A stretch of 41,008 bases of DNA, taken from Phascolarctobacterium sp. GTDB taxonomy: Bacteria > Bacillota > Negativicutes > Acidaminococcales > Acidaminococcaceae. The notes below the pieces were generated by a model. The model did not search any database and was not told the DNA's origin. It worked only from the letters and a program-made list of their open reading frames with translations. The position numbers were made by a program, and so were the translations under genes. The stretch's first letter is position 1; each line of letters opens with the position of its first letter. The stretch spans positions 1-41,008 of the forward strand of contig JAFTID010000075.1 in assembly GCA_017457085.1 (NCBI GenBank), written 5' to 3'. Below are positions 10,179 to 23,739 of the stretch, one piece after another.

Positions 10179-10200
10179 TATATTAAGGTTGTTGTGATAT

Positions 10201-10397
10201 AAAATTTTTCTATATTCCCGTGACACTCAAACGCAACGCTCCTTTTAGTATAAAAATATCGCTGTCCACATATTCGCTTCTAAAATAATTACAAGTTTTT
10301 CCAAAGTACAGCTCAAGATGTGGACGGGCGCGCTATTTTCTTTTAATATGTGTCGCTGCTTATTTCGAATCGTCACTTGGAATATAAGAAAAATTTT
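10201..10397. repeat. Large imperfect fold-back element, copy A
   Basis: It fills most of the 348-bp gap between prs and the deacetylase gene. Outer arms: 10201-10218 with 10379-10397 (one bulge), then gtgac/gtcac (10220-10224/10372-10376). Inner arms: 10253-10262 with 10330-10339 (one mismatch) and gtccacat/atgtggac (10264-10271/10318-10325). Between them is acgctccttttagta, shared with copy B (11281-11450). Arm sequences differ between the copies but stay self-complementary. Identity is unknown: a MITE-like element or a structured RNA are both possible. Confidence 0.65.
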
Positions 10398-10473
10398 AAT
10401 TTAGAGATAACTATATAAGATTCACAGAAGAATGTTTTTTTGAGATAGTTTACTAGAAAATAGGAAGCAGTTT

Positions 10474-11268
10474 ATGCGTTTAATTTACATTCTAATAATA
10501 ACAGGAATATTGGCAGTTGCCATGCTTTGGCTTGGCAAGCTTGGGGTAGTTCGGAAGAAGCTGGCGGCGCTGGTGGCGTGTGCTTCCCTTTTGTGTGGGG
10601 GAGGTTTGCTACTTTTGGCAGTGCTTCCTGGCAACAGCTTTTATGGTGAAACAATCACGTCAGGACAAGTTGCCAGTGGGAAGAAGCTTGTAGCACTGAC
10701 TTTTGATGACGGACCATACCCTCCTTATACGCAAAAGTTGTTGACCGTTTTGGAAGAGAAGCAAGTACAGGCAACTTTTTTTGTCGTGGGCAATAATACT
10801 AAGCAATTTTCAGAAGTGGTGTGCCTAACTGCAAGTAAAGGTCACGAAATTGCCTTGCACGCTGGCGAACATAAGGACTTCTTGAAGCTGAGCAAAGGTG
10901 AGCTTGTGGAAAATATATCTGCTGGTAAAAAGCTTTTGGAAGAATTGACAGGGAAGCCTGTGAAATATATGCGCCCTCCCCACGGTTTTAGGGATTGGGC
11001 AGTAATGGAAGCTGCTTCTGATTTTGGACTAAAGGTTGTCAATTGGCGCGTTATTCCTCGTGATTGGACAAATCCCGGAGCGCAGGTGATTGCAGATAGG
11101 GTGTGCAAGGATGTTGCGCCCGGAGCAATTGTGTTACTGCATGATGGGGATGCGCCTGCTCAAACTGCGAGTCGTGAGCAGACGATAGAAGCAACTTCTA
11201 TCATTATTGATGAACTACTAAGTCAAGGTTATGAGTTTGTGACTGTTGGGGAATTGTTGAATCAATAG
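10474..11268 (+). CDS. Polysaccharide deacetylase (NodB-type), membrane-anchored
   Basis: A 264-residue enzyme likely to remove acetyl groups from a cell-wall or exopolysaccharide N-acetyl sugar outside the membrane. Two hydrophobic stretches (about 2-20 and 31-51) form a signal anchor or hairpin. The NodB domain runs from about residue 70: motif 1 LTFDDGP (D78, D79), motif 2 LHAGEH with H129 and H133, motif 3 RPPHG (167-171), then VVNWRVIPRDW and LLHDGD. The Asp-His-His metal triad is intact. Motif 2 deviates from the common HSxxH form. The gene stands alone, bracketed by two related fold-back elements. Confidence 0.88.
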   Translation: MRLIYILIITGILAVAMLWLGKLGVVRKKLAALVACASLLCGGGLLLLAVLPGNSFYGETITSGQVASGKKLVALTFDDGPYPPYTQKLLTVLEEKQVQATFFVVGNNTKQFSEVVCLTASKGHEIALHAGEHKDFLKLSKGELVENISAGKKLLEELTGKPVKYMRPPHGFRDWAVMEAASDFGLKVVNWRVIPRDWTNPGAQVIADRVCKDVAPGAIVLLHDGDAPAQTASREQTIEATSIIIDELLSQGYEFVTVGELLNQ

Positions 11269-11280
11269 CAATATAAAATA

Positions 11281-11450
11281 AGCAATTTATAAATTTTCCG
11301 CTTATGAAGAAATGCTTAACGCTCCTTTTAGTAGAAAATATTGCTGAGCAAATAACTCGCTTACGCTCAGACAAATTTGCTCATTGCAACATTTTCTTTA
11401 TTATAGGTCGCTACATTTCTTAAATGTCGCTTGAAAATTTATAAATTGCT
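11281..11450. repeat. Large imperfect fold-back element, copy B
   Basis: It starts 12 nt after the deacetylase stop. Outer arms are an exact 18-bp inverted repeat (11281-11298 with 11433-11450), followed inward by aagaaatg/catttctt (11307-11314/11414-11421). Inner arms are agaaaatattgc/gcaacattttct (11333-11344/11386-11397, one mismatch) and gagcaaat/atttgctc (11346-11353/11375-11382). acgctccttttagta is shared with copy A at the same structural position. It may also terminate transcription of the deacetylase gene. Confidence 0.7.
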
Positions 11451-11542
11451 TTCTTGCAAAATTTATGGTAGCATTATTTTGCTTTCGATATGGAAATACA
11501 TAAAACAAGTTAATTGTTTTTAGATAAAGAAAGGAAATAGAA

Positions 11543-21650: not shown

Positions 21651-23739
<2,089 letters not shown>

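Follow-up and report, generated by a model that had tools for sequence, protein, structure and literature searches.

A fold-back repeat family of Acidaminococcaceae, probably MITE-like, with concertedly changing arms and inversions at orthologous loci

The two large fold-backs that flank a polysaccharide deacetylase gene in a Phascolarctobacterium genome are members of a dispersed repeat family, which is best called a previously uncatalogued family of MITE-like bacterial fold-back repeats, the kind itself being known. We consider it probable, although well short of certain, that these are non-autonomous elements whose arms are matched at least partly by template switching and which have spread between the genes of two genera of Acidaminococcaceae, the two fold-backs here being old copies. 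The interesting features of the family are the concerted change of its arms and the inversion of elements at orthologous loci.

The window, i.e. the whole stretch of 41,008 nucleotides that was analysed, is part of contig C71 of a 1.93-Mb genome (G000), whose congeners are ruminant-gut MAGs designated 'Phascolarctobacterium sp.' The original prediction described two fold-backs around the deacetylase gene, and its coordinates proved right to within one or two bases; the shared blocks and covarying pairs that it named for the copies A and B are correct. The features are located as follows.

10200 to 10398, + strand: copy A in full (subfamily 1), with prs on one side and the polysaccharide deacetylase gene on the other
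10200 to 10218, + strand: copy A left arm (P1), taaaatttttc-tatattcc, perfect complement of 10379-10398 save a one-base bulge on the right arm
10379 to 10398, + strand: copy A right arm (P1'), carrying an additional base at 7-8 bp from the core
10220 to 10224, + strand: copy A P2, GTGAC, pairing with GTCAC at 10372-10376
10372 to 10376, + strand: copy A P2', GTCAC, after which comes the conserved TT in the 1x2 internal loop
10236 to 10250, + strand: conserved block ACGCTCCTTTTAGTA in copy A, near invariant in alignment A1
10264 to 10271, + strand: copy A upper stem GTCCACAT, with its partner ATGTGGAC at 10318-10325
10474 to 11268, + strand: polysaccharide deacetylase gene (Pfam PF01522, E 3.2e-30), a neighbour outside the element
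11280 to 11451, + strand: copy B in full (subfamily 2), with the deacetylase gene on one side and pth on the other; blast relatives at C19 and C67
11280 to 11298, + strand: copy B left arm, 19 bp, from the inverted-repeat scan of the window
11319 to 11333, + strand: conserved block ACGCTCCTTTTAGTA in copy B, the same block as in copy A
11433 to 11451, + strand: copy B right arm, 19 bp, complementary to the left arm without a mismatch

With the spacer limited to 90-260 and the arms required to match perfectly over a minimum of 12 bp, copies A and B are the sole inverted repeats of the window. Forty Markov simulations of the window gave a mean of 0.5 such repeats, and their longest arm reached 14 bp, versus 19 in B. 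Folded as single-stranded DNA, both copies were more stable than any of 200 shuffles (z -3.6 for A and -7.4 for B). A different, GC-rich repeat, GGGGAGCTGGCATCGCGGAGCGATGACTGAGGGG, occupies positions 21661-21694 of the window, a site at which G002 and G003 hold a fold-back copy, and sequences like it are found near other fold-back copies in G001 and G002.

Used as a blastn query against its own genome, copy A gave 12 further matches, and blast with A and B together revealed 15 copies in G000, belonging to three subfamilies. A covariance model (R1) was trained on 17 copies of subfamily 1, drawn from four congeneric genomes, and no subfamily-2 copy was among them. It recovered copy A, itself a training sequence, with 205 bits (E 2.3e-46), and copy B with an E value of 1.4e-17; since no B-type copy had entered the model, A and B are structural relatives from two subfamilies. 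The R1 search yielded at least 18 copies in G000 (those at C18, C16:61363 and C9 were gained by the model), 24 matches in G001, 23 in G002 and 7 in G003, as well as one copy each in two genomes from a second genus of Acidaminococcaceae, and zero matches in the remaining 53 family genomes searched. Blast with one distant copy from the second genus matched 18 sites in G036, 10 in G037 and 25 in G038. The original prediction, which was to fall if there were no more copies and no covariation past the first two, thus survived: the model, searched across the genome and its relatives, brought many further copies, and covariation extends beyond A and B.

The elements are about 160-340 bp in size and have no coding capacity, and each copy examined lies between genes, in one orientation or the other. 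They adjoin many unrelated genes, so that the tie to the deacetylase gene that had been implied finds no support. Of 59 copies, 14 have divergent genes on their two sides and 9 have convergent ones, while both neighbours run along the element's direction in 27 cases versus 9 in which both are opposed, many of these copies being duplicates. No Rfam family matched at gathering score in the window, and none matched the element at E<=1 at five loci holding copies. A phage-borne element was ruled out because no viral contig among those searched contained the conserved block. A genome pattern scan produced hits outside Phascolarctobacterium, in about the number that we estimate to be expected by chance.

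Several copies have conspicuous surroundings. One copy (L095, G000:C10) is flanked by a T-box leader and a ZTP riboswitch, at 462-672 and 1203-1285. A long subfamily distinguished by an additional insert on the left (L096 in G000:C58, L097 in G000:C17, and L045-L052 and L072-L079 in G001 and G002) lies about 80-180 bp upstream of paralogous genes, the products of which start like MSKKMLKRSLALGALMAFVITGS and are probably exported or outer-membrane proteins; there, element and leader are duplicated together with the genes. In the second genus, a repeat with ACCTGGGAAGTGGCGGAGGCAAGAATGCG often follows directly after the fold-back (right flanks of L176, L186, L191 and L193 in G036, and of L162 and L201 in G038).

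From the outside inwards, the element is composed of P1 arms of 17-27 nt, an internal loop (1x2) whose 3' side bears a conserved TT, P2 (GCAAC/GTTGC) and a covarying P3. Inward of P3, an unpaired conserved ACGCTCCTTTTAGT stands opposite CTTGAAT..GTCGCT, and then come the stem P4 (AAAATATCGC) and variable apical modules. The core consensus in the window genus reads GCAAC...ACGCTCC...GTCGCT...GTTGCTT. Most copies, including ones at loci with different arms, carry a single additional base in the 3' arm, 5-10 bp away from the core; this bulge is absent from B, C11a and C83. The 1x2 loop and the recurrence of the 3'-arm bulge at varied loci suggest some selection on shape.

Pairing is maintained through extensive sequence change. 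In alignment A2, 89.7% of cells are paired, and 22 of the 41 pairs are changed on both sides; for basal pairs the count is 16 of 21. None of 500 shuffles did as well, and every slid register scored far lower. Copy A provides an example, as its GTGAC/GTCAC is a doubly changed form of the usual GCAAC/GTTGC (alignment pairs 19-177 and 20-176). RNAalifold, when applied to the mixed alignment, found the P4 stem only, because the arms were misaligned there, a problem that trimmed subfamily alignments removed. Wobble pairs are the usual intermediates in RNA evolution. Arm pair cells comprise 815 Watson-Crick, 11 A.C and 6 G.T combinations. Intrinsic terminators in the same DNA, used as a control, are likewise without a wobble excess, and we therefore dropped the wobble count as a means of deciding between RNA and DNA. 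The near absence of wobble fits pairing at the DNA level, and in view of the terminator control it is not counted as proof.

When flanks were compared, 4 of 13 orthologous loci turned out to hold the element in opposite orientations in different species. At the locus of copy B, G000 and G002 agree and G001 is reversed within colinear flanks of 76-92% identity, the bulge having turned together with the core. The other inverted loci, again with colinear flanks, are G000:C68/G001:C72, G001:C115/G003:C38 and G001:C10/G002:C8; the last, for which support comes from one flank only, has the arm beside the shared flank unmoved and the core turned. An additional inversion separates G036 and G037 in the second genus. 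Parts of the element can also be exchanged. Between G000:C11a and G003:C22, the arms and P2/P3 are retained and the apical module is replaced, as ectopic gene conversion would do. In G038, two copies, L200 and L202, are related in that the right-side module of one matches the left-side module of the other in reverse complement, suggesting that inverted copies have exchanged half-elements.

In the window genus, the arms differ across loci yet stay complementary, whereas cores within a subfamily are about 80-87% alike, a contrast that initially made target DNA look like the source of the arms. In the second genus, 14 copies at separate sites have common arms of about 27 nt, TGAAATTCGTAATAAG... 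/ ...CTTATTACTCAATTTCA, ending TGAAATT...AATTTCA, with a mean arm identity of 0.92. Terminal inverted repeats are thus common to copies in the second genus and diverged in the window genus. At orthologous loci, the arms are kept although the DNA immediately outside is often unalignable, and they are more conserved than nearby spacer DNA; between G001:C116 and G003:C1, four pair positions are altered on both sides. At the C16 locus, where G000 and G001 carry an element, G002 has a bare hairpin, AAATACCTGCTTTATAAGCAGGTATTT, the one arm-only site whose phylogenetic setting is good. G002 is closer to G001, and the insertion is common to G000 and G001. Since sister and outgroup both carry the element, the hairpin is best read as a loss by exact deletion between TGCTT repeats. 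The arms common to 14 sites, their retention in orthologues and this deletion together indicate that the arms belong to the element as its termini; in old copies, the two have diverged in concert.

An inverted target-site duplication arising on insertion was excluded as the source of the arms, because many second-genus copies at separate sites have the same ones. Among the 14 copies with well-marked ends, no consistent target-site duplication was found, nor did the loci compared include a clean pre-insertion site. A young copy (L165, G036:C15:66258) is bounded on either side by a 12-bp direct repeat, ATCCATAAATAG, which could be a target-site duplication. At L205 (G038:C17), a near-perfect palindrome, ATCATATAGATATATATCCATATGAT, is present where G036 and G037 hold an element; this may be either arms remaining after loss of the core or an unoccupied palindrome.

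The mechanism that we propose would begin with copies moved by a transposase or recombinase provided in trans. After insertion, template switching of the polymerase between the arms would transfer mutations from one arm to the other and occasionally invert the core, so that arms might drift while their pairing persists. Ectopic gene conversion among copies would hold the cores more alike than the arms, and a weaker selection on shape would retain the 1x2 loop and the 3'-arm bulge. Template switching was shown to homogenise the arms of inverted repeats and to invert their spacers (PMC8604942), and, in stems, to create multi-base compensatory changes (PMC8794818). This one process could hence account for the paired change, for the near-perfect match of the arms and for the inversions. 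The original prediction was right that the arms covary, and the covariation is real; its further claim, that compensatory change implies selection on a folded form, is not established, as template switching yields the same pattern without selection and the spacer inversions that it predicts are seen at orthologous loci. Covariation alone is no proof of a selected folded RNA, and we find DNA copying between arms a more likely cause of the paired change than the working of an RNA.

Several observations count against this explanation, among them the lack of a consistent target-site duplication and of a clean pre-insertion site. Template switching alone does not account for the 1x2 loop and should have removed the recurrent 3'-arm bulge, and the conservation of arms above nearby spacer DNA would also come from selection. 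No single-lineage template-switch event with its intermediate was caught among the copies compared. As to the source of movement, the checks made brought up no mobilising enzyme: a Y1 transposase (PF01797) is absent from G000, G001 and G003 and gave two hits in G002; a RAYT-driven REPIN was rejected because three of the four genomes are without this enzyme. Candidates for an autonomous version were five right ends in which no core had been detected, and these proved to be ordinary copies.

Among the other explanations, the one deserving most attention, although we regard it as unlikely, is a structured RNA: copies would work once transcribed, for instance as hairpins for mRNA stabilisation or processing, with their pairing kept under selection in the RNA. 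The strong helix covariation, the conserved 1x2 loop with its recurrent bulge, the conservation of orthologues above nearby spacer DNA and the co-directional bias of neighbouring genes (27 versus 9 copies, many of them duplicates) would all be in line with such a function. It is hard to reconcile with elements inverted at 4 of 13 orthologous loci and with the 14 and 9 copies of 59 that lie between divergent and convergent genes, respectively; Rfam offers no matching family, and the scarcity of wobble pairs in the arms points the same way, a weak point given the terminators.

A recombination site acting as single-stranded DNA would leave the arms free in sequence and constrained in shape, if a recombinase read the shape of the folded strand (the extrahelical base and the 1x2 loop) in the manner of attC. 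Variable Watson-Crick arms nearly devoid of wobble pairs, a one-base bulge on the same (3') side of the core, and the signs of mobility and inversion would suit it; no such recombinase was identified, cassettes in tandem arrays are absent, and some copies (B, C11a, C83) lack the bulge. We judge this reading improbable. Equally doubtful is the corresponding proposal that a putative recombinase moves or flips the elements by folded-strand shape (any arms, an extrahelical base at 7-8 bp, a 1x2 loop) and not by terminal sequence. If true, it would put an attC-like principle in the service of a dispersed repeat family. Least probable of all, to our minds very much so, is that the core alone moves and the arms are pre-existing palindromes of the target, hairpins such as terminators. 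The bare hairpin of G002 and the bare palindrome of G038, each opposite an element in two other genomes, are what it would predict. Insertion into terminator hairpins at the C16 locus was nevertheless set aside, as deletion between TGCTT repeats explains the G002 hairpin; moreover, the same arms recur on 14 second-genus copies at separate sites, and the side of the bulge tracks the core.

With the MITE-like reading preferred, this uncatalogued family of ruminant-gut bacteria represents a natural case in which textbook covariation, usually accepted as proving a functional RNA, may stem from a mutational process. The inversions, copied arms and swapped cores at orthologous loci allow such a cause to be tested. 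They also counsel caution, as covariation alone is a poor ground for naming such repeats non-coding RNAs.

Several known systems resemble the family in part. Integron attC sites have covarying arms and extrahelical bases on one strand, and are recognised in folded form by integron integrases. The resemblance, noted here as a likeness alone, lies in the covarying arms and the extrahelical base; unlike attC, our elements form no arrays and have no link to an integrase. Intergenic palindromes and MITE-like families of the ERIC, YPAL, NEMIS and RUP type (catalogued in PMC2267715) are likewise dispersed, intergenic, non-coding, on the order of 100-200 bp, with predicted stem-loops and inverted-repeat ends. 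The present family differs from them in its Acidaminococcaceae hosts, in arms that vary across the loci of one genome yet remain complementary, and in frequent orthologous inversion, and Rfam found no sequence relation. REPINs are intergenic inverted repeats with predicted single-stranded DNA or mRNA hairpins and compensatory changes between their sides (PMC3116915), and in these respects are similar to our elements. However, REPINs strongly conserve their terminal REPs and vary in the spacer, whereas here it is the outer arms that vary; they are also REP doublets mobilised by RAYT, and three of the four genomes here are without a RAYT/Y1 transposase. Quasipalindromes share with our elements the homogenisation of arms and inversion of spacers (PMC8604942) and the multi-base compensatory changes (PMC8794818). 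Those cases concern short inverted repeats in genes or RNA genes, whereas here template switching would act on a whole dispersed repeat family.
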